A DNA stretch of 64,000 nucleotides from Patiria pectinifera (lineage: Eukaryota > Echinodermata > Asteroidea > Valvatida > Asterinidae), in contig CM057142.1 in the NCBI GenBank assembly GCA_029964075.1, forward strand, positions 2,061,770 through 2,125,769, read 5' to 3'. Numbering within the stretch: position 1 is the first letter of the stretch; each line of letters starts with the position of its first letter. Position numbers and translations under genes: made by a program. Shown one piece after another: positions 1-29,059 of the stretch. Under the pieces are notes generated by a model. That model saw only the letters and a list, made by a program, of their open reading frames with translations. It made no database searches and was not told the origin of the DNA.

Positions 1-25
1 CCGTAGGATGGTTCAGTGGTGTAGC
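1..25 (-). CDS. LDLa exon, partial (cut by window edge)
   Basis: Only the 5' end of this exon is present, coding for the TTEPSYG start of an LDLa module. The acceptor ttgtag precedes a GC dinucleotide, so the split codon is Gly instead of the usual Asp. It lies 226 bp from the next exon, matching the small 227-bp repeat period. Confidence 0.7.
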
Positions 26-3000
26 CTACAATCGAAAAGTCAGTGAGTACACGTATTTACAAAACTTGGAGTATGTTACAGCTTTCTAAAAACTGTTTGT
101 TGCAGATATTTACCATAACAGTCGTATTCATCTTCGCCATAGTAGCAGTCTGAGTATCCGTTGCATCGTTGGTAGTCTTGAATACATTGACCGTTGTAGT
201 AGCATTGCCACTCATATGAACTGCAGCCGTAGGATGGTTCAGTGGTGTAGCCTACAATCGAAAAGTCAGTGAGTACACGTATTTACAAAACTTGGAGTAT
301 GTTACAACTTTCGAAAACCTGTTTTGTTGCAGATATTTACCATAACAGTCGTATTCATCTTCGCCATAGTAGCAGTCTGAGTATCCGTTGCATCTTTGGT
401 AGTATTGAATACATTGGCCGCTGTAGGAGCATTGCCACTCATATGAACTGCAGCCGTAGGATGGTTCAGTGGTGTAGTCTGGAATTTAAAAGTGTGGTTT
501 AAAGTCAATGAGATGTACAATTAAGATATGTTATGTGTCTTCCTTTAGAAACTCTGGTTGTTGGGAATATACATGGTGACCCAAAAATACAACCCGGAAA
601 TATTTGCTTCAAAAATAAAAGGGATCGCTAGATTTTTATGTTTTGGGCATCACCATAATCATCTGCAGCCGCACTAGGGTGGTTCTGGTGTATGGTAATG
701 TACGGGAAAGTGAAGTCAAATGATTAAGCTTTACAATTCAGGAAACGTGTAAACATTTCTCTAAAAAGGTAGTTGGAAAATAGCAGAGATATTTTATCTT
801 TAAATTTGCATGAGTTTGTGTTTGAACCTTGATTTTTACATGTTCATTTTACTTTCCCGCCTCACCATTACAGGGCGCCCTGTTAAGGCCAATGTTCAAA
901 TTTTCAAGTTCATTTTAAATGTTGCGACAATAAACTTACCACTGTTACAAGTAACTCCTGCGTCCTCATAATGTACACAGTTATGACTAAACCAGCCATT
1001 ATGATAGCAATCAGCTATGTCAGGTTCATTTCCTTGGCAGTTAACATTGTCAAGCATGATCGGACCTGATCCTTGACCGAAGTGGGCGCTGCCCCACGCC
1101 TGGTATGCAGAAGGATAACCAAGCATGCGACAGACGACATGAGCGTCATTAATGCCCCATCCATCATCACAGACTGTACCCCACTGGCCTTGGTAGAAAA
1201 CTTCAACTCGACCCTCGTTCGAAGAGCCTCCATTAACGAGACGAACTGTTAATGGAGCTAAAGTAACAGAAAATGAAACGTTCGTGGATTAGGAATTAAA
1301 AAAAAGACTTTTGATATAAACTCACTGTATAGTGCTTCAACTTAGTTTAAGTTGTAACACAAACTCAGACATCAGTTTCATTACTGCGTCTGAGATGTCA
1401 CATTGTCAGTTCAAACACGGTTCAAAATGACGAACAGCGCATGAATGCAAGTCCACACTCGACAATAATAAACTTCTCGATCGGTAGACTGGCTTTCTCC
1501 CATCAGTATCGATAAATATACGGATCGGGAACCAGTCTACTTGCATGGCGGACCTGTTTAGTAAGCAAACACAACACCACCACCAACATCACCAACAACA
1601 ACAACAACGACAACAAAAGCCTTTTGTGTTCCAGAGTGTTGCAGACGCCTACAATAATTTGATTTTATTGACGAGCAACGGACAGTGCATCTATAAAACG
1701 CCAGTTTGAGAAAAGACTTATTTTCAATTAAATCCTGCGAATCGTTAATATTGAAGTCCTCGATTTCAAAGCAACTTGAGAATACGACTGGTATACATCT
1801 TTTCGGGTGGAAAGTGCAATTTGTTGGAAAAAGTTTCTTGGCCAATTTTTATATAAAGTTTGGCGGTGATTGGACGAATAAGTTTGCATTACCTGTACAT
1901 TCAACACCGGCATCTTCACTGTGGTAGCAGTGTTCAGAGTAATAGGATGTGCAGTCGAGAATCGAACTTTCCGAACCGTTGCAGTAGACGTGTACAAGGT
2001 GAATAGGACCAACACCCGGGCCATAGGTAGCGTCACGCGGGGCACTAATGGCTGGTCCATAGCCGAGCTGTCTGCAGACGACACGGGCATCGTCCATGCC
2101 CCAGGAATGACTGCAAGCCGTTCCCCAGGAACCGTTGACAAACACCTCTACTCTGCCTTCATAGATGGTGCTGCCATTCACTAATCTTATCACGGAGGAG
2201 GGTAGATTGACGTCTACAGTGGGCGCCACGGTGTTTCCTATGAATATATGGTGAAATCGACATAAATGGATTGAAGTACTACAAATTAAGTCAAATTAAT
2301 GTTAGGAAGTACGTTTTGTCACGTCACTGCAATAAAATACACGTATCTGCAGAGGTGATTAGTTACCATAACAGTTGTATTCATCTTCGCCATAGTAGCA
2401 GTCAGAGTATCCGTTGCATCGTTGATAGTCTTGAATACATTGACCGTTGTTGTAGCATCTCCACTCATATGAACTGCAGCCGTAGTAGGATGGTTCAGTG
2501 GTGTAGTCTGGTAATGAAAAGTGTGTTTTAAAAGACAGTTGCAAAGATGTGTCAGCTGGTATGCTGAATTGCGAAGGACGCGGCTACAACGTGGTCGGGC
2601 CGCTGGCACGTAAAGGCGCCTATGGCTGCCGGCCACATCGACCCATATATTACCACGGAGCACAGCCTGAGATCGAAAGTGTTTGATTTTTCCGGAGGGA
2701 GGAAAACCGGAAGGCCCGGAGAAAACCCCTCTTGGCACAGGAGAGAACCAACGCACAACTCTACTCACTTGTGATCTGCGGCCCGGATTCGAACCGTGGT
2801 CACCTTGGTGAGAGGCGAACGCTTTATACGCACAAGCCACCCATGCCACCCATGATGATATTTACCGTAACAGTTGTATTCATCTTCGCCATAGTAGCAG
2901 TCAGAGTATCCGTTGCATCTTTGGTAGTCTTGAATACATTGACCGTTGTAATAGCATCGCCACTCATATGAACTGCAGCCGTAGTAGGGTGGTTCAGTGG

Positions 3001-6000
3001 TGTAGTCTGGAAATGAACAGTGTCGTTTAAAAGACATTCATAAATACCTAAAACAGTTAAACCATTCCGATTGGTCGAGAGACCGTCACGTGGATGGTTT
3101 AATACGGTTGATAAAACACCAACCGGTTTTAAATACTTTTTTCCATGATGTAACATGAATGGGTGGCATGAGTGGTTTGTGCGTAGGCTTGTGCGTAATG
3201 TATTGTTTACAAAAATTGAAGTATGTTTCAACTTTAGGAAAACGTTTTGTTGTAGATAGTTACCGTAACAGTTGTATTCATCTTCGCCATACAAGCAGTC
3301 TGAGTATCCGTTGCATCTTTGGTAGTCTTGAATACATTGACCGTTGTAGTAGCATCTCCACTGATATGAACTACAGCCATAGGATGGTTCAGTGGTGAAG
3401 TCTGAAAAGGAAAAGACAGTGAGATGAATTATGTACAAAACGTGGAGTGTGTTTCAACTTTAGAAAACTGTTTTGTTGGAGATAATTACCGTAACAGTTG
3501 TATTCATCTTCGCCATAGTAGCAGTCCGAGTATCCGTTGCATCTTTGGTAGTCTTGAATACATTGGCCGTTGTAATAGCATCGCCACTCATATGAACTGC
3601 AGCCGGAGTAGGATGGTTCAGTGGTGTAGTCTGGAAATGAACAGTGTCGTTTAAAAGACATTCATAAATACCTAAAACAGTTTAAGCATTCCGACTGGTC
3701 GAGAGAACGTCACGTGGGTGGTTTAATACGGTTGATAAAACACCAACCGGTTTTAACGACTTTTTTACCTGGTGTAACATGAATGGGTGGCATGGGTTGC
3801 TTATGCGAAATGTATTATTTACAAAACTTGAAGTATGTTTCAACTTTAGGAAAACGTTTTGTTGTAGATAGTTACCGTAACAGTTGTATTCATCTTCGCC
3901 ATACAAGCAGTCTGAGTATCCGTTGCACCTTTGGTAGTCTTGAATACATTGACCGTTGTAGTAGCATCTCCACTGATATGAACTACAGCCATAGGATGGT
4001 TCAGTAGTGAAGTCTGAAAAGGAAAAGACAGTGAGATGAATTATGCACAAAACGTGGAGTGTGTTTCAACTTTAGAAAACTGTTTTGTTGGAGATAATTA
4101 CCGTAACAGTTGTATTCATCTTCGCCATAGTAGCAGTCCGAGTATCCGTTGCATCTTTGGTAGTCTTGAATACATTGGCCGTTGTAATAGCATGCCCACT
4201 CATATGAACTGCAGCCGGAGTAGGGTGGTTCAGTGGTGTAGTCTGGAAATGAACAGTGTCGTTTAAAAGACATTCATAAATACCTAAAACAGTTTAAGCA
4301 TTCCGACTGGTCGAGAGAACGTCACGTGGGTGGTTTAATACGGTTGATAAAACACCAACCGGTTTTAAAGACTTTTTTACCTGGTGTTACATGAATGGGT
4401 GGCATGGGTTGCTTGTGCGTAATGTATTATTTACAAAACTTGAAGTATGTTTCAACTTTAGGAAAACGTTTTGTTGTAGATAGTTACCGTAACAGTTGTA
4501 TTCATCTTCGCCATACAAGCAGTCTGAGTATCCGTTGCATCTTTGGTAGTCTTGAATACATTGACCGTTGTAGTAGCATCTCCACTGATATGAACTACAG
4601 CCATAGGATGGTTCAGTAGTGAAGTCTGAAAAGGAAAAGACAGTGAGATGAATTATGTACAAAACGTGGAGTGTGTTTCAACTTTAGAAAACTGTTTTGT
4701 TGGAGATAATTACCGTAACAGTTGTATTCATCTTCGCCATAGTAGCAGTCAGAGTATCCGTTGCATCTTTGGTAGTCTTGAATACATTGACCGTTGTAAT
4801 AGCATCGCCACTCATATGAACTGCAGCCGTAGTAGGGTGGTTCAGTGTTGTAGTCTGGAAATGAACAGTGTCGTTTAAAAGACATTCATAAATACCTAAA
4901 ACAGTTTAAGCATTCCGATTGGTCGAGAGAACGTCACGTGGGTGGTTTAATACGGTTGATAAAACATCAACCGAATTTTAAACACTTTTTCCTGGTGTTA
5001 CATGAATGGGTGGCATGGGTGGCTTGTGCGTAATGTATTATTGACAAAACTTGAAGTATGTTTCAACTTTAGGAAAACGTTTTGTTGTAGATATTTACCG
5101 TAACAGTTGTATTCATCTTCGCCATACAAGCAGTCTGAGTATCCGTTGCATCTTTGGTAGTCTTGAATACATTGACCGTTGTAGTAGCATCTCCACTGAT
5201 ATGAACTACAGCCATAGGATGGTTCAGTAGTGAAGTCTGAAAAGGAAAAGACAGTGAGATGAATTATGTACAAAACGTGGAGTGTGTTTCAACTTTAGAA
5301 AACTGTTTTGTTGGAGATAATTACCGTAACAGTTGTATTCATCTTCGCCATAGTAGCAGTCAGAGTATCCGTTGCATCTTTGGTAGTCTTGAATACATTG
5401 ACCGTTGTAATAGCATCGCCACTCATATGAACTGCAGCCGTAGAAGGCTGGTTCAGTGGTGTAGTCTGGAAATGAACCGTGTCGTTTAAAGATATTCATA
5501 AATATCTAAAACAGTTTAACCATTCCGATTGGTCGAGAGACCGTCACGTGGGTGGTTTAATACGGTTGATAAAACACCAACCGGGTCTAAACACTTTTTC
5601 CTGGTGTAACATGAATTTGGGTTCCTAGGAAATCTGGTCCCTTTTATCCTGTTATTGGTTGAAGCCTCACACGTGACCAGTCGATTTCCTTATTATCTTC
5701 ACTGAGGCATGTGCACTACTAATAATGTGTCCGTATGTATATTGGAGCTCTGAGTTCACACTACACCGGCACCGCTGTGTTCTGCGGCACATCGCGAGGT
5801 ATGCGCCACGCGCGCACCAATCTCCATATAAGGATTTTTTTGTATTACTCGTGAAAAGTACACACCATAAACATAGCTAGAGGGGTGTTTGCCAAAAAAT
5901 TAAGCAAAGTCGGTGGGTTTTCAGTTGTTTTGAGTTTTGGGCCGAAAGGTATTTATGAATGGGAATAAATACGTGCTTAACCGCAATTAAAAAAGTACGT

Positions 6001-9000
6001 TCTACAACAACCAAGCACATATTTATTCCCTTAGTTGGACAGTTATGTTGTGTCCCATCTTTAACAAACGTTTTGCATTGAACATTTACCGTAACAGTTG
6101 TATTCATCTTCGCCATAGTAGCAGTCTGAGTATCCGTTGCATCTTTGGTAGTCTTGAATACATTGACCGTTGTAATAGCATCGCCACTCATATGAACTGC
6201 AGCCGTAGTAGGATGGTTCAGTGGTGTAGTCTGGAATTTGGGTAAATCAAAAAGTAATGAAAATGTTGACAGTTTTGAAACAATGACATATGTCGTCTTT
6301 TCTTTTTGGACGTTTTAGTATCCTTTGTACGTCTTATACAAAACACCATTTTAGCATAATACAAAAGCGACTCAAGTGTCGTTAAGATACGTTGGTGAGA
6401 TCGCAGGATGCGCTCTTCTTTGTTTCTGAAACGGTGGCTGAAAATGTTTATGTTATACCGAGTAAATGTGTACCCGTCTCTGAAATGATAACTTAAAGCA
6501 CCTTGGGGGAGGTATATGTAATACAAAACGATTTAATTCCCTAAAAATCATCCTAACAGATTTTAGCTGAAACATGCCTCCTGTTTAACCCATCGCTGGT
6601 GACCCAGTGCCTGCCTATACATAATGAATGGAGGTAGAGAGAGGACACCATTGGACGTAACGTGGTGTGTAACCTATACGTATGTCGATATTAGTTATAC
6701 TTCCTAATTCATTTGTGACTGGGATTGGAGTTGGAGTTGCAAGTTGGGCTGTTTTCTAGTTAAATCTTATTATTGTAATAATGGTGAACACTTAATCTGT
6801 ATGCCCAAATATAACTTAAAATTCTAAATCCATCAAGGATAGATCTGGTCATACCAGATGTAAGTACCTGTCATTGAGACGCTTTGAGCGACAATTTTGA
6901 ACCCTGGTAAGGTGACACTGCCATCTGAAGTGAACCTCAGCCACATCTTGTTTCCTGATGAAAGCTTGTCAGTTGGTATCACGCTCCCAGATAGGGAAAA
7001 GAGCTGCGCTGTGGATGCGTCTTCACCATCGCCCCCCTTCAGGTAGTCGTACCCAGACTCGAGTCGAAAGGAAACGAATGTGAGCTGGATTCTACGACCT
7101 TTGTCAGTCTGAAGATACCAGATGTCATCAGCATTGTTGGGATAAGTGTAGTACGGGTAGCCGGTAGAGGTTATGGTGTAATTACTCTCTGCACTTATAT
7201 ATTCAGTTCGAGCTACGGACAAATAACAAATGAACCGACAAAGTTTTTGTACGTGAGAGTAAGCTAACAAACAAGCCTGCTCATAAGACGTCACTATTTA
7301 AGACACGCTACAGGAAGCACATTGCCTCATAGTAATTTCCGACCTTATGCAGTAATTTGCTTGTTAAAACAAGAACTAAGCAAGCATTGTAAGGCTCGTC
7401 CTAGACCAGCGTGAGTGCGAGCGCACAACCTTCAATTCAAATAAAATGGCTATTCATCGGTAGTTTTGTATAAAGCGCGGTCTGGTCTAATCAATGGGCC
7501 AGATTTAGCCCTTATCATTGGCGTGAGTCACATATCACAGTCAGTTAGTCATTCAGACATTGAGATAGGTATATAATGACGAGGGGCTGGTCCTCTTGAA
7601 AAAGCACCCCCCCCCCCAAAGAAAATCACCCAAAAAAAATTAAAAAAATAAAAATAACAGAGAATGTATGATCTTACTAGTGGCACGGTTCTCTCTGAAC
7701 ACAGCTTCGTCTGGAATGTTCTTTTCGTTCTTTATGTCGTTCGTGTCGTCATTAGGGAAGGCACAGTCATTTCCTGCAGTTAAGATAAACAGTAGTTATT
7801 TAAACACACACAAAGAGCAATGTTATACAGGCAAGATAATCAGAGCGTCATGAAAGACAAGATCCTCTACATGTATATCCTCCGGGACAGACATTTATCA
7901 TATGATAATAACTGAATGATCTGGCACAACCCGATCACCGTTTAAAATGGTCAGTATTATTTTATTTTTTTGGGTGACCATCACCATCCTTTGGTTTTGT
8001 CTTCGTACTTTCGTGTTCGTGTTATTTTTTCTTGACATTATTACTCCACGGCCTTTCTTGCAAGCAGAACATCGCTCTATTCAAGGGATGTAAATGAAAC
8101 TTTGTACAAACATGTATTACTGTCCGAAGACAAAAATGACAAAAAAGTGACGTCATCATGACGTTACCATGACGTCATCAAATATCAATTTACAAGCGAT
8201 TCAAGGTCAAACCTGACAATCTCTTGAACTGAATTGATCACCAAGTTCAGTTTTGTGAGGTGTAACATATTGCTTTGGGCAACATTTTTCATTCCCGGGC
8301 ACAAAAGTGCTTTAAATTTACTTCTGGGATTACCGGAAGTGCAATGAAAAATTTATATAACTTGAAAACGGAAAAATTTCACTGCAGTAATACTAATTTA
8401 GAATGTAAAGTAAAGGATGAAAAACTTTTTTAAAAGTCATGATATCGCCATCGCCCGAAAGGGCGCCCTCTTGTTGCGTTTTAACGAAAGTTGAATCTGT
8501 ATTATTTGAAAAAAAAAACTCGTCAAAACTTTGCCAAATTGCCCATGATGATAAAACCTGGTATGAACCTGAACTCAGGGGCGAATTTCACGGCGCTGCT
8601 AAGCACAAAAAAAGTTGCTTAGCACAAAAGTCTGGCTTATAAAAGCAGGTTTTCAGTTAAAACTCCATATGATTTTCATGCTAAGCAAACAACAACTGAA
8701 TACTAATCACGAGCAATATACATCACGTGGAGTTTTGGCTGATAACCTGCTTTTATAAGCCAGACTTTTTTTGTGCTGAGCAAATTTTTGTGCTGAGCAT
8801 CGCCGTGAAGATGGGCCCTGGTTTGAAGTAATGATGTGCATCAGATCGGGTGGACCAGGCCAAACCGACCCGGAACATTAGAGATATAAACTGAATCCAA
8901 ACCGAAACCAATCTTAACTCCCTTAAAACCGACCCGACCCGACCCGACAAAAAATAAGGTAAAACCGACCCGACCCGACCCGACAAAAAAATAAGGTAAA

Positions 9001-12000
9001 ACCGACCCGAACCGACCCGACCCGAAAAAAACTGGAAATAAAACCCCGAATACCTTGCTTGGACAAAGTGATCACTTTTTTGTGCCTTCCCTTACCCACG
9101 TGGCATGAATTCTTTTGCAAAACCATCGTCTCTCTTAAGCCATCAGCCTCGGTCCAAAATGTTGGCCACCGGTATCAAATGAGGGGAATAATCGTCATAG
9201 CGATTTTTGGCAAGGTGTACACCTCCAGATGTTGGAAAATATGTGACAGCATTGCTGCGGTTGCAGCTTTTTGGATGTTATCACCCTTTTTTTCTTCAAA
9301 TTGTCCATCAAAATGCTTGTTACCACTCTAGGGGCGGTATACCTTGCGCATGCGCAATATAATCTTTTATGCCCTGATTTGACACTGACCAAACCCCCCG
9401 GCTGATGGCCTATCTCTCTGTCATACTCAGTGGGTTGATCGAGAGTAACTCCGCTTATTGAACAAACGCATGGTATCATCTAGTCTGAGTGTCACCCGTT
9501 ATCCACGGAGCCCAGACTCCGGTCTAACGTCTGATATATCAAAGCATGCAGATCTATGCGATCTCGCGCCTCAGCCAGTCGGAGTCGACTTTACTAAATC
9601 GTGACGTTATTTCATTCCCAAATCAGGACTAAACGTTTGATTGGTCAATTCGAATGCAGTGTTTTGAAATGCAACAACAGCCGGGCGCGTTATCGCGTAA
9701 CATGATAACAGAGCGCACGACGCCGGACGCGCAACGGGTGAATCCGGTTCGTTAGTAAAAACGTCATACACGCACGCTCACCACTGATTACTAGCGCCCA
9801 TTGGCTACAAACACTCGAGCTGCGTTAACTTCCGGTTCCAATCGTGCAGAAAGTGCTGGAGGTGACGTCACACTAACGAACCGGATGACCCATAGATATA
9901 GAACTTAAAAAACTCATAGACATAGAACTTAAAAAACTAGATCGGACGCGCGTATGATACGCGCGTTTTGACAGGGCGCAGCCATTGGTCACGTGAATAG
10001 GGTCAAAATTTCAAACGCGCATATCTTCGGCGTGACTTTGCAGCGCGTCCATGTAGAACCCAAAAGTTTTGTGCACAGTGAATGGCGCGTTCGAACGCGC
10101 GTCCGATCTAGTTTTTTTAAGTTCTATATCTATGGAATGACCGAAGACCCGATATAGAAAGCGCCCGCTGATTGGTCAAAATCTAGGAGGTCAAGAGGCG
10201 GGGTCTTGCCTAATAATCAGCGAATCTGCTCACATAATAATTCGCCATAGGTCTATTACATAGACTAGGTATCATCACGCGGTATGATGAAAACTGTTAC
10301 AACATATCTATTTCACTGTCAGTCCCATCCGACTGGAGAAATTAATATTGTGGGAACTTGATAGGGTGCATACCTATGTTCCCCAATACCGATGTTCCCC
10401 AATACCGATGTTCCCCGAAATCCCTACCAATATACCCTAAACCTAACCCTAGCCCTAACCCTAACCCTAATTCTAATCCTAAGGATTTGGGGGAACATCG
10501 GTAGTGGGGAACATCGGTAGTGGGGAACATCCATTCGGGTAGATCCCGCCACACCACACTAGGGCTGCGGTCAGAGTGACTGTCAATAATACTGCATCAC
10601 CAAAATTTCTCAACTGTTTTGGTTTATTTCGTTTTTTTTTTCAAAAGATGGCTAAACCGACCCGACCCGACCCGAAAATGAAAATGCAAAACCGAAAGCG
10701 ACCCGACCTGACTTAAAAGATGGACAAACTGACCCGACCCGACCTGAAGTCGGTTTCGGGTCGGGTCGGTTTCGGTTTCGGGTTGGGTTTGCACATCATT
10801 AGTCTGAAGATGTGAAAAACGTTTGTGACATCATCATGACGTTGTAAGGTTTCAAATTACAAGCGATTAAAGCTCAACATTGGCAAAAATTAATTTGAAC
10901 TATAAGTTTTCAAATGAATGCAGTACTGTTGTCGTTTGTTTGTGATCCATTAAAAAATTCCTTTGGCAATATATTGTATTCTGGAAATATATCCGTATAT
11001 AAGTACGAAAGCATTTTGCTTCAGACAAACAAATTAAGGAAGTGTTGAGTGAAGGAAAAAAAAGCATGATGACGTCATCGTTTGATGTAAAATCGTACAA
11101 TTCAACATCCATTATAATTTCCATAATTTCACAAGTTTTTTTCACTTTTTCCACATAATGAAAATGTATCATCTCTGACCTCAGTCAGTAGTCACTTTGC
11201 ACAGTGACGTAACTGATGACGTAATCACACTGGAAATATCGTCATCGTGTATTTTGTATACTGAAACGTATGAAATTCAAAAGATGTATTTCATTTTCTA
11301 ATTAAAGGAAAAGTTCCATGCGAAAGACCGAAGTTCGTGATCCTTTTCTGTTCTAGTGACATCAAAATATTCACCACTGGCAAACCTAATAAAATAGCTT
11401 GCTCCCAATCACTCCCGTGAGTTTGCAAGCTTTTACTGCTGACGTCATCAAACCGGAAATAACGTGTACGTGTACATAAAATGTACTGAAATTTATCAAC
11501 CCAAAAGAGGCATTTTCGTTTTTCAATTTAAAGAAATTTTTCCACGGAAAAGACTGAATTTCGTGATCCTCTATTCCGACTTCAAATTATTTAGTTTTCT
11601 GCACGATCATTCTGCGTTTGTAACTTAACAAACGCGAATCTGTAGTAACAACTTGACCTTTACTTCTAGGGTTACCGGAAGTGAAATACTAAACGAATAT
11701 AACTTGGTCCCTTTTATCCTGTTATTGGTTGAAGCCTCACACGTGACCAGTCGATTTCCTTATTATCTTCACTGAGGCATGTGCACTACTAATAATGTGT
11801 CCGTATGTATATTGGAGCTCTGAGTTCACACTACACCGGCACCGCTGTGTTCTGCGGCACATCGCGAGGTATGCGCCACGCGCGCACCAATCTCCATATA
11901 AGGATTTTTTTGTATTACTCGTGAAAAGTACACACCATAAACATAGCTAGAGGGGTGTTTGCCAAAAAATTAAGCAAAGTCGGTGGGTTTTCAGTTGTTT

Positions 12001-15000
12001 TGAGTTTTGGGCCGAAAGGTATTTATGAATGGGAATAAATACGTGCTTAACCGCAATTAAAAAAGTACGTTCTACAACAACCAAGCACATATTTATTCCC
12101 TTAGTTGGACAGTTATGTTGTGTCCCATCTTTAACAAACGTTTTGCATTGAACATTTACCGTAACAGTTGTATTCATCTTCGCCATAGTAGCAGTCTGAG
12201 TATCCGTTGCATCTTTGGTAGTCTTGAATACATTGACCGTTGTAATAGCATCGCCACTCATATGAACTGCAGCCGTAGTAGGATGGTTCAGTGGTGTAGT
12301 CTGGAATTTGGGTAAATCAAAAAAGTAATGAAAATGTTGACAGTTTTTGAAACAATGACATATGTCGTCTTTTCTTTTTGGACGTTTTAGTATCCTTTGT
12401 ACGTCTTATACAAAACACCATTTTAGCATAATACAAAAGCGACTCAAGTGTCGTTAAGATACGTTGGTGAGATCGCAGGATGCGCTCTTCTTTGTTTCTG
12501 AAACGGTGGCTGAAAATGTTTATGTTATACCGAGTAAATGTGTACCCGTCTCTGAAATGATAACTTAAAGCACCTTGGGGGAGGTATATGTAATACAAAA
12601 CGATTTAATTCCCTAAAAATCATCCTGACAGATTTTAGCTGAAACATGCCTCCTGTTTAACCCATCGCTGGTGACCCAGTGCCTGCCTATACATAATGAA
12701 TGGAGGTAGAGAGAGGACACCATTGGACGTAACGTGGTGTGTAACCTATACGTATGTCGATATCAGTTATACTTCCTAATTCATTTGTGACTGGGATTGG
12801 AGTTGGAGTTGCAAGTTGGGCTGTTTTCTAGTTAAATCTTATTATTGTAATAATGGTGAACACTTAATCTGTATGCCCCAATATAACTTAAAATTCTAAA
12901 TCCATCAAGGATAGATCTGGTCATACCAGATGTAAGTACCTGTCATTGAGACGCTTTGAGCGACAATTTTGAACCCTGGTAAGGTGACACTGCCATCTGA
13001 AGTGAACCTCAGCCACATCTTGTTTCCTGATGAAACCTTGTCAGTTGGTATCACGCTCCCAGATAGGGAAAAGAGCTGCGCTGTGGATGCGTCTTCACCA
13101 TCGCCCCCCTTCAGGTAGTCGTACCCAGACTCGAGTCGAAAGGAAACGAATGTGAGCTGGATTCTACGACCTTTGTCAGTCTGAAGATACCAGATGTCAT
13201 CAGCATTGTTGGGATAAGTGTAGTACGGGTAGCCGGTAGAGGTTATGGTGTAATTACTCTCTGCACTTATATATTCAGTTCGAGCTACGGACAAATAACA
13301 AATGAACCGACACAGTTTTTGTACGTGAGAGTAAGCTAACAAACAAGCCTGCTCATAAGACGTCATTATTTAAGACACGCTACAGGAAGCACATTGCCTC
13401 ATAGTAATTTCCGACCTTATGCAGTAATTTGCTTGTTAAAACAAGAACTAAGCAAGCATTGTAAGGCTCGACCTAGACCAGCGTGAGTGCGAGCGCACAA
13501 CCTTCAATTCAAATAAAATGGCTATTCATCGGTAGTTTTGTATAAAGCGCGGTCTGGTCTAATCAATGGGCCAGATTTAGCCCTTATCATTGGCGTGAGT
13601 CACATATTACAGTCAGTTAGTCATTCAGACATTGAGATAGGTATATAATGACGAGGGGCTGGTCCTCTTGAAAAAGCACCCCCCAAAGAAAATCACCCAA
13701 AAAAAATAAAAAAATAAAAATAACAGAGAATGTATGATCTTACTAGTGGCACGGTTCTCTCTGAACACAGCTTCGTCTGGAATGTTCTTTTCGTTCTTTA
13801 TGTCGTTCGTGTCGTCATTAGGGAAGGCACAGTCATTTCCTGCAGTTAAGTTGATCAGTAGTTATTTAAACACACACAAAGAGCAATGTTATACAGGCAA
13901 GATAATCAGAGCGTCATGAAAGACAAGATCCTCTACATGTATATCCTCCGGGACAGACATTTATCATATGATAATAACTGGGTGATCTGGCACAACCCGA
14001 TCACCGTTTAAAATGGTCAGTATTATTTTATTTTTTTGGGTGACCATCACCATCCTTTGGTTTTGTCTTCGTACTTTCGTGTTCGTGTTATTTTTTCTTG
14101 ACATTATTACTCCACGGCCTTTCTTGCAAGCAGAACATCGCTCTATTCAAGGGATGTAAATGAAACTTTGTACAAACATGTATTACTGTCCGAAGACAAA
14201 AATGACAAAAAAGTGACGTCATCATGACGTTACCATGACGTCATCAAATATCAATTTACAAGCGATTCAAGGTCAAACCTGACAATCTCTTGAACTGAAT
14301 TGATCACCAAGTTCAGTTTTGTGAGGTGTAACATATTGCTTTGGGCAACATTTTTCATTCCCGGGCACAAAAGTGCTTTAAATTTACTTCTGGGATTACC
14401 GGAAGTGCAATGAAAAATTTATATAACTTGAAAACGGAAAAATTTCACTGCAGTAATACTAATTTAGAATGTAAAGTAAAGGATGAAAAACTTTTTTAAA
14501 AGTCATGATATCGCCATCGCCCGAAAGGGCGCCCTCTTGTTGCGTTTTAACGAAAGTTGAATCTGTATTATTTGAAAAAAAAAACTCGTCAAAACTTTGC
14601 CAAATTGCCCATGATGATAAAACCTGGTATGAACCTGAACTCAGGGGCGAATTTCACGGCGCTGCTAAGCACAAAAAAAGTTGCTTAGCACAAAAGTCTG
14701 GCTTATAAAAGCAGGTTTTCAGTTAAAACTCCATATGATTTTCATGCTAAGCAAACAACAACTGAATACTAATCACGAGCAATATACATCACGTGGAGTT
14801 TTGGCTGATAACCTGCTTTTATAAGCCAGACTTTTTTTGTGCTGAGCAAATTTTTGTGCTGAGCATCGCCGTGAAGATGGGCCCTGGTTTGAAGTAATGA
14901 TGTGCATCAGATCGGGTGGACCAGGCCAAACCGACCCGGAACATTAGAGATATAAACTGAATCCAAACCGAAACCAATCTTAACTCCCTTAAAACCGACC

Positions 15001-18000
15001 CGACCCGACCCGACAAAAAATAAGGTAAAACCGACCCGACCCGACCCGACAAAAAAATAAGGTAAAACCGACCCGAACCGACCCGACCCGAAAAAAACTG
15101 GAAATAAAACCCCGAATACCTTGCTTGGACAAAGTGATCACTTTTTTGTGCCTTCCCTTACCCACGTGGCATGAATTCTTTTGCAAAACCATCGTCTCTC
15201 TTAAGCCATCAGCCTCGGTCCAAAATGTTGGCCACCGGTATCAAATGAGGGGAATAATCGTCATAGCGATTTTTGGCAAGGTGTACACCTCCAGATGTTG
15301 GAAAATATGTGACAGCATTGCTGCGGTTGCAGCTTTTTGGATGTTATCACCCTTTTTTTCTTCAAATTGTCCATCAAAATGCTTGTTACCACTCTAGGGG
15401 CGGTATACCTTGCGCATGCGCAATATAATCTTTTATGCCCTGATTTGACACTGACCAAACCCCCCGGCTGATGGCCTATCTCTCTGTCATACTCAGTGGG
15501 TTGATCGAGAGTAACTCCGCTTATTGAACAAACGCATGGTATCATCTAGTCTGAGTGTCACCCGTTATCCACGGAGCCCAGACTCCGGTCTAACGTCTGA
15601 TATATCAAAGCATGCAGATCTATGCGATCTCGCGCCTCAGCCAGTCGGAGTCGACTTTACTAAATCGTGACGTTATTTCATTCCCAAATCAGGACTAAAC
15701 GTTTGATTGGTCAATTCGAATGCAGTGTTTTGAAATGCAACAACAGCCGGGCGCGTTATCGCGTAACATGATAACAGAGCGCACGACGCCGGACGCGCAA
15801 CGGGTGAATCCGGTTCGTTAGTAAAAACGTCATACACGCACGCTCACCACTGATTACTAGCGCCCATTGGCTACAAACACTCGAGCTGCGTTAACTTCCG
15901 GTTCCAATCGTGCAGAAAGTGCTGGAGGTGACGTCACACTAACGAACCGGATGACCCATAGATATAGAACTTAAAAAACTCATAGACATAGAACTTAAAA
16001 AACTAGATCGGACGCGCGTATGATACGCGCGTTTTGACAGGGCGCAGCCATTGGTCACGTGAATAGGGTCAAAATTTCAAACGCGCATATCTTCGGCGTG
16101 ACTTTGCAGCGCGTCCATGTAGAACCCAAAAGTTTTGTGCACAGTGAATGGCGCGTTCGAACGCGCGTCCGATCTAGTTTTTTTAAGTTCTATATCTATG
16201 GAATGACCGAAGACCCGATATAGAAAGCGCCCGCTGATTGGTCAAAATCTAGGAGGTCAAGAGGCGGGGTCTTGCCTAATAATCAGCGAATCTGCTCACA
16301 TAATAATTCGCCATAGGTCTATTACATAGACTAGGTATCATCACGCGGTATGATGAAAACTGTTACAACATATCTATTTCACTGTCAGTCCCATCCGACT
16401 GGAGAAATTAATATTGTGGGAACTTGATAGGGTGCATACCTATGTTCCCCAATACCGATGTTCCCCAATACCGATGTTCCCCGAAATCCCTACCAATATA
16501 CCCTAAACCTAACCCTAGCCCTAACCCTAACCCTAATTCTAATCCTAAGGATTTGGGGGAACATCGGTAGTGGGGAACATCGGTAGTGGGGAACATCCAT
16601 TCGGGTAGATCCCGCCACACCACACTAGGGCTGCGGTCAGAGTGACTGTCAATAATATTGCATCACCAAAATTCTCAACTGTTTTGGTTTATTTCGGTTT
16701 ATTTCGTTTTTTTTCAAAAGATGGCTAAACCGACCCGACCCGACCCGAAAATGAAAATGCAAAACCGAAAGCGACCCGACCTGACTTAAAAGATGGACAA
16801 ACCGACCCGACCCGACCTGAAGTCGGTTTCGGGTCGGGTCGGTTTCGGTTTCGGGTTGGGTTTGCACATCATTAGTCTGAAGATGTGAAAAACGTTTGTG
16901 ACATCATCATGACGTTGTAAGGTTTCAAATTACAAGCGATTAAAGCTCAACATTGGCAAAAATTAATTTGAACTATAAGTTTTCAAATGAATGCAGTACT
17001 GTTGTCGTTTGTTTGTGATCCATTAAAAAATTCCTTTGGCAATATATTGTATTCTGGAAATATATCCGTATATAAGTACGAAAGCATTTTGCTTCAGACA
17101 AACAAATTAAGGAAGTGTTGAGTGAAGGAAAAAAAAGCATGATGACGTCATCGTTTGATGTAAAATCGTACAATTCAACATCCATTATAATTTCCATAAT
17201 TTCACAAGTTTTTTTCACTTTTTCCACATAATGAAAATGTATCATCTCTGACCTCAGTCAGTAGTCACTTTGCACAGTGACGTAACTGATGACGTAATCA
17301 CACTGGAAATATCGTCATCGTGTATTTTGTATACTGAAACGTATGAAATTCAAAAGATGTATTTCATTTTCTAATTAAAGGAAAAGTTCCATGCGAAAGA
17401 CCGAAGTTCGTGATCCTTTTCTGTTCTAGTGACATCAAAATATTCACCACTGGCAAACCTAATAAAATAGCTTTCTCCCAATCACTCCCGTGAGTTTGCA
17501 AGCTTTTACTGCTGACGTCATCAAACCGGAAATAACGTGTACGTGTACATAAAATGTACTGAAATTTATCAACCCAAAAGAGGCATTTTCGTTTTTCAAT
17601 TTAAAGAAATTTTTCCACGGAAAAGACTGAATTTCGTGATCCTCTATTCCGACTTCAAATTATTTAGTTTTCTGCACGATCATTCTGCGTTTGTAACTTA
17701 ACAAACGCGAATCTGTAGTAACAACTTGACCTTTACTTCTAGGGTTACCGGAAGTGAAATACTAAACGAATATAACTTGAATAGGAAAGCATTTTACTAC
17801 ATTAATACTTATTTAGGAAATCTTCAGTGAGTAATAGTTATCTCACACAATTTTACGATGACGTCATCACCGAAAAGGGCACCCTCTAATGGCATATCAA
17901 CAAATTATATATATTTTTTAATTTCAAACGTTGTCGGTAAACATGTTTTGGACAGTAAAATATTCTTTTGCGAAGTTTCATAACGATGACGTATTCAGAC

Positions 18001-19495
18001 GAAAAGTTATTGTATGAAGACTTTGGAAGATTACTCTTTTGCATATTTAGATTAAAATACACCATTCGGTACCTATCGGGCTCATTGTTGCCAAAATAAT
18101 GTCAGCTTCATTATTGTCAATTGGCGCTCTCATTACGTGACATGCTCATCCCGGAAGTCGGGTGTCATTAATACGTAAACGTATACGTTCGTGTCATTAC
18201 CTCCGCCAAGGAGGTTATGTCTTCAAGGGCGTTGGTTTGTGTGTGTGTTGGTTGGTTGGTTTAGTGTGTTTGTCCTTGAACAGGATAACTCAAATAGTTC
18301 TGGACAAATTTTAATGAACAACTTTTAGGGGTGGTCCTTGGTACAAGTACAAATCGATTAGATTTTGGAAGTGATCCGGATCTGCGTCTGGATGCAGGAT
18401 TTATTTAAAGTATTTTCACCCATCATCACATGGAAAACGTTCACCATGTGTGACCATCTTCGTGTGCGTGGCACTGACCCGGTGACCCTGTATGCCTTAT
18501 CACCATAGAGCTAATTTAATATAGCTCTATGCTTATCACCCACCTAATCTAACCACATAGGTCAATGGACTAGAACATTTTTACAATCGGGGAGTGGAAA
18601 GGTAGACAAACACAGGCATATACATGTAAACTACAAAATGTTTGAGTTTAAGGATTTGTTTTAGAAGCCACATTGCATTGGTGCTGAGTGTAGTGACGGG
18701 AACTTGTTTAGCCTTGGCGGAAGTGTGCGCTCTCTGAGTGCATTTTAGCTTTTACATTTTCAGCATTTTATTTTTAATATATCGAACATAACCTGTGAAC
18801 ACTACATTAGTCTTTTTTTCCTTTTTTTTAAATTTGTGACATCAAACCGGAGGTTACGTGTGAATAAAAATGTGTTTTGAAATCTCGCGATCCCTGAAGA
18901 ATGCATTTGTTCAAATTCATAATGCTTATTTAACCGACAGATCTTTGAATTATATGCTTTTTCTATTGTTTTCTTAAACGTTTTTACAACCGAGTAGACA
19001 GTGTAAAATAAAGTTGTGCTCCCCATCACTCCAAGTTTGTTACAAATACAAACGCAAAACTCTAGTTGGGTGATTTGGTACTACCCGATCACCATTTTAA
19101 AATGGTTAGAATTAGGTGATGGGTTGTCAACCATTTCAGGTGGAATTATAACACATGATATTTGATACCCAGTCCTATCTTCATTTTAAGCAAGGATTTT
19201 CACGTGAAATCGGTACATATGTTTCCGGGTAATTGCAAACGTTCTGACGTCCATCTAATATAATGTCATTAAGAAGTTCCGGGGACTGAATTGAATCCAG
19301 GGGATAAAGGCAACATGTTCCACAAAGGTACCAGCGAGTGGCTAGCGTACACTCCGTGAGCCACGGTTGAAAATGTAACTTAATTCTTGAAACAAAATCT
19401 ATTGAGAGATCAGGGACTATCTACTGAAAGATCTTTGACTTACCAGCGATGAACACCGCTAGAAGCAGAACGAAGAGGCGATTCATCTTGCCCAT
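1..19495 (-). CDS. LDLa/SRCR/CUB mosaic secreted protein gene (multi-exon, 3' end outside window)
   Basis: Overall gene model, listed exon by exon below. Order in the protein: signal peptide, linker-CUB-LDLa, linker-CUB-LDLa (duplicated), ten LDLa modules, SRCR, SRCR, three LDLa modules, then off the window. All junctions are GT-AG and every internal exon is phase 1 at both ends. The exons in view sum to about 3,580 nt, or about 1,190 residues. Families: LDLa modules bind calcium and ligands, SRCR domains bind microbes or polyanions in many scavenger receptors, and CUB domains mediate protein or glycan binding. Such mosaics occur in invertebrate immunity, extracellular matrix and mucus, but the role here is inference. 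No transmembrane segment or protease domain is visible, though the C-terminus is not in the window. I do not recognise an orthologue. The model assumes the two 6-kb copies are really in tandem. Confidence 0.75.
114..251 (-). CDS. LDLa exon, 138 nt
   Basis: The exon has six cysteines in LDLa spacing. The calcium-site residues read CNG, SDC and EDE. Differences from the array modules are Gln for Arg before the second Cys (EWQC) and Asp in EYDC. It is phase 1-1 with a gtaaat donor and a tag acceptor, and the split codon is Gly. Confidence 0.85.
341..478 (-). CDS. LDLa exon, 138 nt, most diverged of the intact modules
   Basis: All six cysteines are kept, but the middle reads CSYSGQC and IQYYQRC instead of CYYNGQC and IQDYQRC. 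This module therefore escaped the homogenisation seen in the 612-bp array. It follows the second SRCR domain in the protein. Acceptor ttccag, phase 1-1. Confidence 0.85.
648..698 (-). pseudogene. Degenerate LDLa exon fragment
   Basis: About 50 bp align by eye with the first half of the neighbouring LDLa exons. The segments ctgcagccg and tagggtggttc are kept, but there are small deletions and the acceptor ccag is gone. The calcium-binding half is absent. It lies between the last SRCR exon and the distal LDLa exons and is best read as a dead exon copy. Confidence 0.55.
940..1257 (-). CDS. SRCR domain exon (second in the protein)
   Basis: One 318-nt phase 1-1 exon encodes a complete scavenger receptor cysteine-rich domain. 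It opens with VRLVNGG, then [37 protein letters not shown] and HYEDAGVTC. Six cysteines are visible, as in group A SRCR domains, but in one exon as is common in invertebrates. SRCR domains bind proteins, sulfated glycans or bacterial surfaces in known families. The ligand here is unknown. Donor G|gtaagt, acceptor tttag. Confidence 0.92.
1571..1615. repeat. CAN trinucleotide microsatellite
   Basis: An imperfect run of CAC, CAA and CAT triplets lies in the intron between the two SRCR exons. Confidence 0.8.
1893..2237 (-). CDS. SRCR domain exon (first in the protein)
   Basis: A 345-nt phase 1-1 exon encodes an SRCR domain with motifs [41 protein letters not shown] and [10 protein letters not shown]. 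It has six cysteines. About 10 residues ([12 protein letters not shown]) precede the domain and act as a spacer after the LDLa run. Two N-glycosylation sequons (NGS) are visible. It differs clearly from the second SRCR, so the pair is an older duplication than the LDLa array. Donor G|gtaatg, acceptor tcatag. Confidence 0.92.
2367..2507 (-). CDS. LDLa exon, 141 nt (last before the SRCR pair)
   Basis: This is a complete six-cysteine module with Asn at CYNNGQC where the array has CYYNGQC. It is phase 1-1 and its split codon into the following SRCR exon is Gly. It sits just outside the 612-bp array, separated from it by a SINE. Confidence 0.88.
2540..2855 (-). mobile_element. tRNA-derived SINE in an LDLa intron
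   Basis: Read on the minus strand it starts with a tRNA-like head: an A-box-like tggcttgtgcg, then cctctcaccaaggtgacc, then a canonical B box ggttcgaatcc. It is followed by a body containing the gttttctccgggccttccgg motif common in invertebrate SINEs. Its 5' end lies only about 10 bp inside the splice donor of the next LDLa exon. Exact ends and target duplications are not clear. Confidence 0.75.
2866..3006 (-). CDS. LDLa exon, 141-nt type, distal end of the array
   Basis: A complete module (TEPPYYGC start). Its upstream intron is homologous to the inter-pair introns of the 612-bp array, so it is a half-unit whose partner exon was lost or replaced where the SINE now sits. Phase 1-1, donor G|gtaaat. 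Confidence 0.88.
3264..3401 (-). CDS. LDLa exon, 138-nt short type, unit 1
   Basis: Encodes the FTTEPSYGC variant with YQWRC and DCLYGEDE. Six cysteines, with Asn for Asp in the CNG calcium position. Acceptor ttttcag, donor G|gtaact, phase 1-1. Confidence 0.9.
3490..3630 (-). CDS. LDLa exon, 141-nt long type, unit 1
   Basis: Encodes [15 protein letters not shown] and DCYYGEDE. It carries one extra codon (Ser) before the first Cys relative to the short type. Acceptor tttccag, donor G|gtaatt, phase 1-1. Confidence 0.9.
3876..4013 (-). CDS. LDLa exon, 138-nt short type, unit 2
   Basis: Same protein module as the unit 1 short exon. The one obvious exon difference, an Arg codon AGG instead of AGA, is silent, which suggests recent copying or selection on the protein. 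Confidence 0.9.
4102..4242 (-). CDS. LDLa exon, 141-nt long type, unit 2
   Basis: Starts TEPPYSGC. It has Ala where all other array modules have Arg before the second Cys (YEWACYY), from a two-base change. Otherwise it matches the array consensus. Confidence 0.9.
4488..4625 (-). CDS. LDLa exon, 138-nt short type, unit 3
   Basis: Short-type module ([22 protein letters not shown]) with the same splice sites as units 1 and 2. I see no amino-acid change against unit 1. Confidence 0.9.
4714..4854 (-). CDS. LDLa exon, 141-nt long type, unit 3
   Basis: Starts [10 protein letters not shown], with Asn for Thr at the second residue and no N-glycosylation sequon created. The remainder matches the long-type consensus. 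Confidence 0.9.
5099..5236 (-). CDS. LDLa exon, 138-nt short type, unit 4
   Basis: Short-type module. The donor intron begins gtaaat rather than the gtaact of units 1-3, as in the exons outside the array. Confidence 0.9.
5325..5465 (-). CDS. LDLa exon, 141-nt long type, unit 4
   Basis: Starts TEPAFYGC, where the other long exons have PSYS, PPYS or PPYY. It is the first array module after the second linker-CUB-LDLa block in the protein. Confidence 0.9.
6090..6230 (-). CDS. LDLa exon, duplication copy 1
   Basis: A complete long-type module ([21 protein letters not shown]). It follows the CUB exon in the protein. Its introns differ from those of the array, so it lies outside the homogenised block. 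Acceptor attccag, donor G|gtaaat, phase 1-1. Confidence 0.9.
6868..7212 (-). CDS. CUB domain exon, duplication copy 1
   Basis: A 345-nt phase 1-1 exon encodes one CUB domain. Recognisable pieces in order are [40 protein letters not shown], the loop ending [20 protein letters not shown], and [13 protein letters not shown]. All cysteines normally forming the two CUB disulfides are absent. Donor ACAG|gtactt, acceptor cgtag. The open frame reads past the donor to a stop at 6833, so an alternative C-terminal end is possible if that splice is skipped. Confidence 0.88.
7678..7773 (-). CDS. Small linker exon, copy 1 (predicted)
   Basis: A 96-nt open segment lies between a good acceptor (ctgcag) and a consensus donor (A|gtaaga), phase 1-1. 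It fits in frame between the signal peptide or LDLa exon and CUB. It encodes about 32 residues, acidic and Asn-rich, with one Cys ([15 protein letters not shown] start). No family is recognised. The support is splice sites and phase only, so it could be a chance frame. Confidence 0.5.
8085..8475. repeat. Dispersed repeat with TGACGTCA palindromes
   Basis: Contains two perfect TGACGTCA palindromes (8148-8155, 8170-8177). It shares blocks such as ttacaagcgatt, taccggaagtg and tataacttg with 10,830-10,880, 11,660-11,706 and 17,740-17,890. It is a diverged interspersed repeat. The right breakpoint of the 6-kb duplication falls inside a member of it. Confidence 0.6.
8576..8820. mobile_element. MITE with long terminal inverted repeats (copy 1)
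   Basis: Ends are caggggcgaatttcacgg and its inverted counterpart in gtgaagatgggccctg. The arms continue inward for about 90 bp through gcttagcacaaaa and tctggcttataaaagcaggt. The centre is short and no protein is encoded. It resembles abundant non-autonomous elements of deuterostome invertebrates. Confidence 0.75.
9891..10134. mobile_element. MITE, 244 bp (copy 1)
   Basis: Terminal inverted repeats of about 38 bp start catagatatagaacttaa and include gatcggacgcgcg. The left arm has an internal 24-bp duplication. It is flanked by atgacc on the left and gaatgacc on the right, a possible target duplication. GC-rich centre, no coding potential. Confidence 0.75.
10375..10532. repeat. Palindrome enclosing telomere-like CCCTAA motifs (copy 1)
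   Basis: The left arm (10375-10423) has three tgttcccc motifs at 16-bp spacing. The right arm (10483-10532) is its imperfect inverse with three ggggaaca motifs. The roughly 60-bp loop holds about seven CCCTAA-type hexamers, some degenerate. Confidence 0.85.
12160..12300 (-). CDS. LDLa exon, duplication copy 2
   Basis: Identical by eye to the copy 1 exon at 6090-6230, with the same acceptor and donor. It joins in phase to the copy 1 linker exon (split codon Gly). Confidence 0.88.
12940..13284 (-). CDS. CUB domain exon, duplication copy 2
   Basis: Same cysteine-free CUB domain as copy 1. The one coding change I see is Leu to Val in [11 protein letters not shown]. Splice sites are identical. 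This is the first CUB in the protein. Confidence 0.87.
13744..13839 (-). CDS. Small linker exon, copy 2 (predicted)
   Basis: Same 96-nt predicted exon as copy 1, with unchanged acceptor and donor cores. It joins the signal-peptide exon in frame (G|GA, Gly). It shares the uncertainty of copy 1. Confidence 0.5.
14642..14886. mobile_element. MITE with long inverted repeats (copy 2)
   Basis: Copy made by the segmental duplication of the element at 8576-8820, not an independent insertion. Confidence 0.75.
15957..16200. mobile_element. MITE, 244 bp (copy 2)
   Basis: Duplicated counterpart of 9891-10134, same length and ends. Confidence 0.75.
16441..16598. repeat. Palindrome enclosing CCCTAA motifs (copy 2)
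   Basis: Duplicated counterpart of 10375-10532. The hexamer run in the loop is unchanged. Confidence 0.85.
18199..18430 (+). repeat. Dispersed repeat starting CCTCCGCCAAGGAGG
   Basis: Begins with the self-complementary cctccgccaaggagg, then ggttatgtcttc, a GT/TTGG-rich stretch, and a body with ggataactcaaatagttctg and gatccggatctgcgtctgg. This layout is familiar from a widespread repeat of marine invertebrates. It lies in intron 1 of the mosaic gene. No coding potential. Confidence 0.65.
19444..19495 (-). CDS. First coding exon with signal peptide
   Basis: Encodes [17 protein letters not shown], then splits a Gly codon at a strong G|gtaagt donor (phase 1). A basic start followed by an unbroken hydrophobic stretch is a typical eukaryotic signal peptide, so the product enters the secretory pathway. 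A second Met four codons in could also be used. Phase agrees with all downstream exons, and a TATA box lies 48 bp upstream. This ties the exon to the mosaic gene, although 5.6 kb of intron separates it from the next exon. Confidence 0.72.
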
Positions 19496-19542
19496 GGCGT
19501 CCGATGAGGAATGGTCTGATTTCCAGCAGAGCCTCTGTTTGC

Positions 19543-19548
19543 TTTATA
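19543..19548 (-). promoter_or_regulatory. Predicted TATA box of the mosaic gene
   Basis: The minus strand reads tctataaagc here. A start site about 30 bp downstream (near 19,515) would leave a 5' leader of only about 20 bases before the ATG at 19,495. Confidence 0.5.
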
Positions 19549-19549
19549 G

Positions 19550-20860
19550 ACTTCCATGCCGAGAAACAGATGGCTCCTGGACCTCATCGCGTGAGAGGAC
19601 TTGTAGATTGTTCCAATATTTGCTGGATGCAGACAACTTTCCATTTCGTCTGCTGACGTGGTTTTTCGGTCAGCCATTAACTTCCAAGTATCTGGTCTGG
19701 TTTTTTTTAACTGAGAGGATTGTAATCAGCTCAGCCCACATTTGAAAAGTCGGAGAGTTGTAAACTTGTCCACGGCTGTTTGGTGTGTATTGGGTAGTGC
19801 GTATACTGTTCAATGCCGTCACAACCATCAGCATCGGAACAAGCGAGGGGATTATACACTCAACCAAAATAAAGTCCCCCTAACACTTTTTGGTATAACT
19901 CAAAAACTACTGAGCACCTCTCGGTCAAATAACGACTAATCGGTAGAGAAATTACTTAGGCATCCAGACATAGTCTTAATTATACGTAGTGGATGCAGTC
20001 CTTATGCAGTTCTTCACCCACTCGCCTCCATATTCTAACTCTGCCGTGTGTGATCCTGAGGTAAAACCTTAATTCGTCGCTAAAAGGAAGTTTGCCCAGC
20101 GCTGCATATTTCACCAACGGTGATGTCTTGCAAACCATAAACGTATACCAGCATAGTGTACGGAACTTGACAAAACAACAGTTTGCACGGGTAATCCCAT
20201 TATTACACATTTAATTTGAACACGTTATTTGTTCAAACTAGGAGAACTTGTATAAAAGGAAAGGGTGACAAAATAACCAACATTTTAAACTTATTTACAT
20301 AACTTTTTGTTGGAAGACTGTATTAAGAAACAAAATGTTCACAAACACATTTCCCGTATATAACATCTTTTGTCATTAATTTACATAATTCCGAATATGT
20401 TATCGTTGTTTTTGGCCAAACAAAGAGTATGGCTGAATGCTTCAGCAATTTTTCTACCGATTCGTTGTTATTTAAGTTATACCAAAAGTGTTGGGGACTT
20501 TCGGTACAATGAATTATACAGCTGTGATCGCAGTTAATGGCCATGCAGGCTGCAGTGTCTGCCCGAAGCTCGGGAGTTGGAAGAACATATCAGTGGCTTG
20601 TCAACTGGGCGGTGGCGTAAATTGGGGAGGCCCCCTCCCGTTCCCGTACTCGAGTTATGTGCCTCCCCTGCCCCTTGTGCCCCATTTACAATTCGAAGAA
20701 TGCCATAATGGGTTTATTATTATTATTGAGAATGAGGCTCCATTAAGCACCGCCCGCAAATCGACCCATTGCTCCGCTGCGTATTTGTACGCATGACAAC
20801 ATGGCTGTGTTTTCCTGCTTAATGTGTATATAGGTGCTGAAACTTACTTACGAACTAGGT
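19550..20860. other. Upstream flank of the mosaic gene, no gene recognised
   Basis: Mostly unique-looking DNA with short chance frames on both strands. A CCCC-rich stretch near 20,620-20,690 precedes the first monomer-like sequence. Confidence 0.5.
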
Positions 20861-28072: not shown

Positions 28073-29059
28073 CTTGCAAAAATATCATGGGCAAAGTGTT
28101 CAAATTTTGTACCAATCATTTGTTTGTTCCTTTACACATGTACCATCACCTTTAATACCATCTATTACTTTATCCCAATTTTGGGCGGAGATTCGAGAAC
28201 GGGGAGGAGGAAGGTGGGACCACATCCTCCTCTCTAGGAGGGAGGGGGGCATTGGGAAGGCCAGAAGGGCCAGGGTCAGGCCTCTATCGCAGTGGTAGGG
28301 CGTACTGATGGGGTCCGGGGGCTTGCCTCCTGGTAATTTTTGAAATCTACGATGCATTCGCCTGCATTCTAAGACAATTTGAGAATATAGTTAGAAATTC
28401 CATTGATTGCTTTTGGCCCCGTTTTGCTAGTTTCATATTAGTCAGCGGCGGAACGGGAGGGGAGGGGTGTTGCTGACGCCCACCCCTAGATCCGCTACTG
28501 CTACCATAACAGTTTTTGCCGACACGTACATCTTATAGGCTAGATGTAGCACCTCCTTCAGTCAGATGGCGTCCATCGAAGGCAAATCGAATGTCTCAAG
28601 TCGACCCCCAAAAGTTGAACAAACCATTTGATGTATTTTAATATTATGCCGTTAGAAATTTAAGAAACCAAGTTACATATCTACTTTCGTGAGCTTTTAG
28701 TGCTTTTCTTGCAAGGCACACTTTCTCTGATGACAAAGTTGCATCATCAGCAATTCAAACGGAACGGCGACAGATGCAAGTGTTTTTGACCGAGGTGATT
28801 ATTCATTTCATTACAAATACAACTGCCAGCTTTCTGTCCATAAAATACAGTTTGGCCCCAATTGAAAGAAAATAAAAAAAACTGTTAATAATTCTATTCG
28901 TATTTGTATACACATTTCATACGTTCTGTTGGATATTGATAAGCGTCGGAGCCGGATTTCAAACTTTCACTTTTCATGTAAGCTTTCACATTTTTCATAA
29001 ACGGTTGAGACAAATTTGTTGCAGCAGCTCGAGATCAGCGCATAATGGTCTCTAACTTC

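Follow-up and report, generated by a model that had tools for sequence, protein, structure and literature searches.

A tyrosine-rich LDLa/SRCR/CUB gene of the starfish Patiria pectinifera, its nested tandem units and a shorter inverted sister copy

The window, that is the whole stretch of 64,000 nucleotides analysed here, corresponds to C14:2061770-2125769 of the Patiria pectinifera genome (613.5 Mb, 1020 contigs). On its minus strand lie 20 complete internal exons of a modular gene that we call copy A: 14 LDLa, 1 SRCRa, 1 SRCRb, 2 CUB and 2 linker exons. The modelled exons match the original prediction for the window, which had counted 14 LDLa, 2 SRCR, 2 CUB and 2 linker exons, all of phase 1-1. 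All 20 are bordered by AG/GT, stay open in frame and have phase 1 at either end. Phase 1-1 was demanded by the exon search, so that this is a confirmation and no blind test; the phase itself follows from the reading frames of the domains together with the AG/GT positions. The near-identity of the exons is real: they are copies of five kinds only and therefore do not represent 20 independent observations. The repeats of copy A exceed chance by far. In window positions the features of the gene are:

19444-19495, minus strand: coding part of exon 1, ATG and hydrophobic leader of 18 residues, donor GTAAGT, phase 1, single in copy A
13744-13839, minus strand: linker exon (NDCAFP...ENRAT), copy 1, phase 1-1
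12940-13284, minus strand: CUB exon, copy 1, phase 1-1 (Pfam CUB, E=4.9e-19)
12160-12300, minus strand: LDLa exon 1 (module type Pfam Ldl_recept_a, E=2e-7)
7678-7773, minus strand: linker exon, copy 2
6868-7212, minus strand: CUB exon, copy 2
6090-6230, minus strand: LDLa exon 2
3264-5465, minus strand: array of eight LDLa exons, four two-exon units of 611-624 bp
5325-5465, 5099-5236, 4714-4854 and 4488-4625, minus strand: LDLa exons of this array
4102-4242, 3876-4013, 3490-3630 and 3264-3401, minus strand: the other LDLa exons of this array
2866-3006, minus strand: LDLa exon 11
2367-2507, minus strand: LDLa exon 12
1893-2237, minus strand: SRCRa exon (Pfam SRCR, E=6.6e-28)
943-1257, minus strand: SRCRb exon (Pfam SRCR, E=8e-36)
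341-478, minus strand: LDLa exon 13
114-251, minus strand: LDLa exon 14
1-25, minus strand: 5' portion of LDLa exon 15, truncated at the edge of the window
C14:2050924-2061794, minus strand: part of the gene left of the window, with 20 LDLa including exon 15, 2 SRCRa, 2 SRCRb and 1 divergent LDLa

Pfam was run on one representative exon each of LDLa, CUB, SRCRa and SRCRb. The representative LDLa module scored 31.6 bits with Ldl_recept_a, above the cut-off of 24.1, and six cysteines are found in 34 of 34 LDLa modules of copy A. For the SRCRb exon an alternative donor three bases on is nearer to the consensus; it would extend the exon to 940-1257 with the phase unchanged. The 241 bp around exon 1 (19380-19620, mostly noncoding) are 84-98% identical in six other copies of the gene family described below, and a shared promoter or 5' UTR is a possible reason for this conservation.

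The gene had been placed within positions 1-19550. When 50 kb were read leftward it was found to continue for about 10.8 kb past the window start, to approximately C14:2050924. Copy A altogether contains 34 LDLa, 3 SRCRa, 3 SRCRb, 2 CUB, 2 linkers, 1 divergent LDLa and one first exon, in the order leader, (linker-CUB-LDLa) twice, LDLa array and repeated (SRCRa-SRCRb-LDLa x6-8). Exon 1 and the 45 modelled internal exons, when joined, encode 2573 aa with no stop, a pI of 4.05 and 15.9% tyrosine. With 45 phase 1-1 exons behind a first exon ending in phase 1, the gene has the make-up of a class 1-1 exon-shuffled modular protein. We infer that copy A is one gene giving a single transcript behind its one first exon, and that the encoded large protein is, judged by sequence alone, probably secreted. 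The 3' end is uncertain because the frame of a Thr/His/Asn-rich tail after the divergent LDLa differs between copy A and its sister copy B (see below). The divergent last LDLa itself (C14:2050924-2051025) has an identical peptide in A and B and lacks, by eye, both cysteines 1 and 3, which is consistent with the loss of one disulfide under the pairing that we take to be the usual one. Outside the modelled exons blastn (1e-6) detected one decayed SRCRb in A; in B it detected two SRCRb. LDLa-like DNA was not found there in either copy at this threshold.

Three nested unit sizes can be distinguished in copy A: 6.07 kb, 4.2 kb and about 612 bp. The largest forms a tandem duplication whose left end overlaps a dispersed repeat:

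5635-11704, unstranded: unit 1 of the 6.07-kb tandem duplication (LDLa 2, CUB and linker with introns)
11705-17779, unstranded: unit 2 of the 6.07-kb tandem duplication (LDLa 1, CUB and linker)
5562-6001, unstranded: dispersed repeat containing the left 6.07-kb breakpoint

The two 6.07-kb units differ by 17 substitutions in 6063 aligned sites (0.28%) and by 7 gaps. Both breakpoints are intronic, the junction shows a microhomology of about 2 bp, and three exons were added in frame. Outside A and B the main matches of the dispersed repeat are 68-80% identical and lie on many contigs (best 40 of 1970 candidates). The 4.2-kb SRCR units are 0.58% apart for units 1 and 2, compared whole, and 0.64-1.04% for unit 3 against the others over the first 2.5 kb, while the four two-LDLa units of 612 bp are 1.96-4.26% apart. 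Divergence between the units of the 6.07-kb and 4.2-kb duplications is lower than that between A and B; the 612-bp units are similar in this respect or older. Between neighboring 612-bp units coding conservation is mixed, with exon differences of 1.08, 2.51 and 1.79% against noncoding differences of 3.61, 1.50 and 5.11%.

A second, inverted copy B is located about 210 kb from A at C14:1819.6-1838.3 kb. With indels included, the longest aligned blocks of the A and B flanks reach identities of 95.3% over 10.3 kb and 96.1% over 6.6 kb. Copy B is much shorter: it contains 12 LDLa where A has 34, 1 CUB (2 in A), 1 linker and 1+1 SRCR exons (3+3 in A), of which the SRCRa is intact and the SRCRb is broken by a premature stop, so that B may be a pseudogene. 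Three flank stretches, two beside A and one beside B, gave one full-length match each plus dispersed fragments (best 40 candidates each), and no N occurs in the 24 sequences examined; these results lead us to interpret B as a probable inverted segmental duplicate, and it looks like a paralogue of A. Germline length change between the paralogues is real. That part of the original prediction which concerns one modular gene with in-frame germline gain and loss of modules is supported by the single first exon of A, the differing counts of A and B and the 6.07-kb block. Exons are conserved between the copies: in three stretches of our choice A and B differ at 174 of 6768 noncoding sites (2.57%) and at 2 of 1170 exon sites (Fisher p=4.5e-10). 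Their divergence is uneven, ranging from 0.4% to 2.7%, with about 2.1% in the 5' flank and 0.4% around LDLa 11-12 and SRCRa; gene conversion between A and B may therefore mimic conservation.

Copy B also records exchange within exons. LDLa exons 3-10 of A alternate between two types, Y-type and F-type, which are told apart by 45 diagnostic columns in the exon and its 60-base flanks. LDLa 4 and 5 of B are Y-type through exon position 56, and from position 112 they are F-type. In these two hybrids the change of type thus falls within the exon, and the frame is therefore kept whatever the intron phase. LDLa 2, 3, 6, 7 and 8 of B are mostly of one type with some mismatching columns. Frame-neutral gain and loss by virtue of phase 1-1, as originally proposed, thus holds for the 6.07-kb block and is not needed for intra-exon exchange such as that seen in the two hybrid exons. 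The 6.07-kb duplication needed phase symmetry because three exons were inserted between unrelated break sites; for some length changes the symmetry is dispensable because in-register exchange between repeats keeps the frame. Phase 1-1 is moreover the norm for such modules. As a control, 28 of 28 LDLa exons in loci L001-L008 were also 1-1 by best acceptor and donor, a set that is not independent (3 on C2, 25 from one array type at two C22 places), and on this basis we do not regard the phase rule as anything special to copy A.

The family of copy A comprises eight loci or more. An LDLa query of the genome gave 150 matches, the best 150 of 523 candidates, so that all of the following counts are lower bounds:

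Copy A: at least 34 LDLa
Copy B: at least 12
C12: at least 27
C10: at least 28, one with a stop
C6, 16.96 Mb: at least 22, four with stops
C6, 21.76 Mb: at least 9
C6, 22.22 Mb: at least 8
C6, 22.28 Mb: at least 3
C17, a distant group: at least 7

Decayed LDLa with stops are thus present at other family loci. The linker exon has 8 matches in the genome, every one at a family locus, and the first-exon stretch has 8, seven of them at family loci including A and a weak one on C11; this search of the genome gave no match on C10. C8 appears with CUB alone among the matches listed. In pieces of four other loci the LDLa and SRCR exons belong to the types seen in A, and in pieces from C6, C10 and C12 the LDLa/SRCR tandem organisation is similar as well. 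On C10 (8485865-8515895) ten SRCRb matches, one of them partial, recur at intervals of about 3.1 kb that hold two or three LDLa, and two stretches offset by one unit share 99.2% identity over 4.9 kb. On C6 two gene copies with near-identical exon spacing lie at 21.760 and 22.221 Mb, about 460,345 bp apart; they are either a recent segmental duplication or an assembly duplicate. Among the open-licence literature matches listed we found no description of this LDLa/SRCR/CUB family.

We compared 81 LDLa modules, with two divergent C6 modules dropped and four loci represented by parts. The nearest neighbor lay within the same locus for 64 of the 81, and for 78 when A and B were merged. Between loci dN/dS was 0.11-0.43 and below 1 in all 15 locus pairs (12 random module pairs each; the pairs reuse modules and are not independent). 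Within A, dN was 0.045 and dS 0.217 (40 pairs). Selection tends to keep the modules intact. The 34 LDLa of copy A give 18 distinct peptides; together with dN/dS below 1 this means that the modules multiplied more than they diversified, and the earlier term "diversification system" was an overstatement.

The composition of the LDLa modules sets copy A apart. Their cores contain 21% tyrosine (255 of 1217 residues in 34 modules) as opposed to 2.6% (9 of 351) in comparison LDLa from C2 and C22, a small set of 10 distinct sequences set against all modules of A. C22 holds another large LDLa array, low in tyrosine and on opposite strands at two nearby places (28.92-28.93 and 29.15-29.17 Mb). The motif DC..GEDE, which we take to contain the Ca2+ ligand positions of LDLa, is kept in the modules of A, so that they may bind Ca2+. 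The SRCRb domain matched 29 solved structures including CD163, CD5L and DMBT1 (DMBT1 E 3e-37 to 2e-40); for CUB the best solved-structure match was cubilin. By analogy, a DMBT1-like function is suggested.

In its mechanism DMBT1 (gp340, salivary agglutinin) is the closest parallel. Like copy A it combines tandem SRCR with CUB, is secreted (predicted for copy A) and changes in repeat number. Human alleles carry 7 to 21 SRCR through intragenic tandem-repeat copy-number variation, and protein size is reported to be set mainly by SRCR number with a minor part for splicing (PMC9038570). Copy A differs in that its most expanded module is the tyrosine-rich LDLa and in domain order and ratios. We rejected filing it as DMBT1: ZP gave 17 genome matches (21 of 21 candidates scored) and none on C14, where a domain split between exons could escape the search. 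Accounts of the invertebrate SRCR superfamily describe tandem expansion of genes and domains, with CUB and LDL-A among the commonest partner domains (PMC10855680); they concern the number of genes and SRCR domains, whereas the multiplication in A takes place inside a single gene and involves LDLa exons as well as entire LDLa/SRCR blocks. Another echinoderm SRCR protein is ApSRCR1 of the starfish Asterina pectinifera, which is reported to be an opsonin. We know of no LDLa, SRCR or CUB domain in the sea urchin SpTransformer (185/333) proteins. Their duplicated immune genes have mosaic repeats and copy number that likely varies among animals; unlike copy A, they are described as two-exon genes with the repeat elements inside one exon (PMC8634487). 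The kind of system is already known; what distinguishes this case is its tyrosine-rich LDLa version and the clear record of recombination.

The account that we consider moderately probable is that of a single animal gene that changes length in the germline; its secreted modular product, acidic and rich in tyrosine, would form a particle-binding Ca2+ polymer. Unequal homologous exchange between near-identical LDLa units, in exons and introns, would change the length of the array. Occasional tandem duplication of larger blocks with intronic breakpoints would add to this, the frame being preserved by the all-phase-1 structure. Module number would then determine how long and how multivalent a Ca2+-binding extracellular polymer is. 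Like DMBT1, this polymer would most likely bind or agglutinate microbes or other particles.

The main functional rival is a crosslinked structural coat. Here the tyrosine-rich LDLa arrays would be a peroxidase (dityrosine) substrate in an extracellular envelope, e.g. the fertilization envelope of the egg, and module number would set the mesh length and not recognition. We regard this as doubtful. LDLa repeats occur in SFE1, SFE9 and proteoliaisin of the sea urchin; to our knowledge, however, these envelope proteins contain no SRCR domain. The tyrosine content of the LDLa cores of A speaks for a coat, with the reservation on the small and unequally sampled comparison set made above. Further support comes from a review according to which sea urchin ovoperoxidase crosslinks tyrosines of adjacent chains including SFE1 and SFE9; these two and proteoliaisin are cortical-granule proteins of the crosslinked envelope (PMC3528131).

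Copy A could also be a hypermutable tyrosine-rich LDLa "ruler" gene, driven by intra-exon recombination. Its module number would vary between alleles in a population, and balancing or sexual selection would act on this number at a gamete surface or at one where host and microbes meet. In that case A and B, or the two near-identical C6 copies, might be alleles or very recent length variants. We think this rather unlikely.

It is quite improbable that the assembly misled us, with unresolved repeats or an unpurged second haplotype passing for the 6.07-kb and 4.2-kb units or for the inverted copy B. Repeats this alike (unit divergence just 0.28-1.04%) are hard to assemble, and the noncoding divergence between A and B could be allelic in a diverse species. 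However, the units differ by substitutions and indels, B is inverted with single full-length flank matches, the sequences examined are free of N, and the organisation seen in the pieces from C6, C10 and C12 is similar. Alternative splicing, which would let one animal make many proteins by leaving out or retaining LDLa exons, is very improbable: skipping any modelled internal exon is frame-neutral and a proneness of symmetrical exons to be skipped is stated for animals (PMC6335736), but skipped exons mostly avoid domains according to a reviewer printed with that article, near-identical exons would yield length diversity and not sequence diversity, and in a human cell line four of five full-length DMBT1 transcripts had the genomic repeat number and one had one fewer (PMC9038570).

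The locus offers a clear genomic record of how a repeat-module gene changes length, with three unit sizes, hybrid exons, one intron-to-intron block duplication and a short sister copy as reference. The tyrosine-rich LDLa module provides a biochemical lead, and copy A sets up a simple test, similar to one already made for human DMBT1, of module number per allele against phenotype.

Rfam gave 0 matches in the window. Upstream of the gene, positions 22000-38800 are occupied by a tandem array of about three units of approximately 5.15 kb with shorter internal repeats; 22494-32793 and 27646-37962 are 93.8% identical, and parts of the array recur upstream of copy B. Further along, on the plus strand (47787-49331), a single-exon frame of 514 aa shows, besides weaker beta-propeller matches below the cut-offs, an F-box (9.1e-12).
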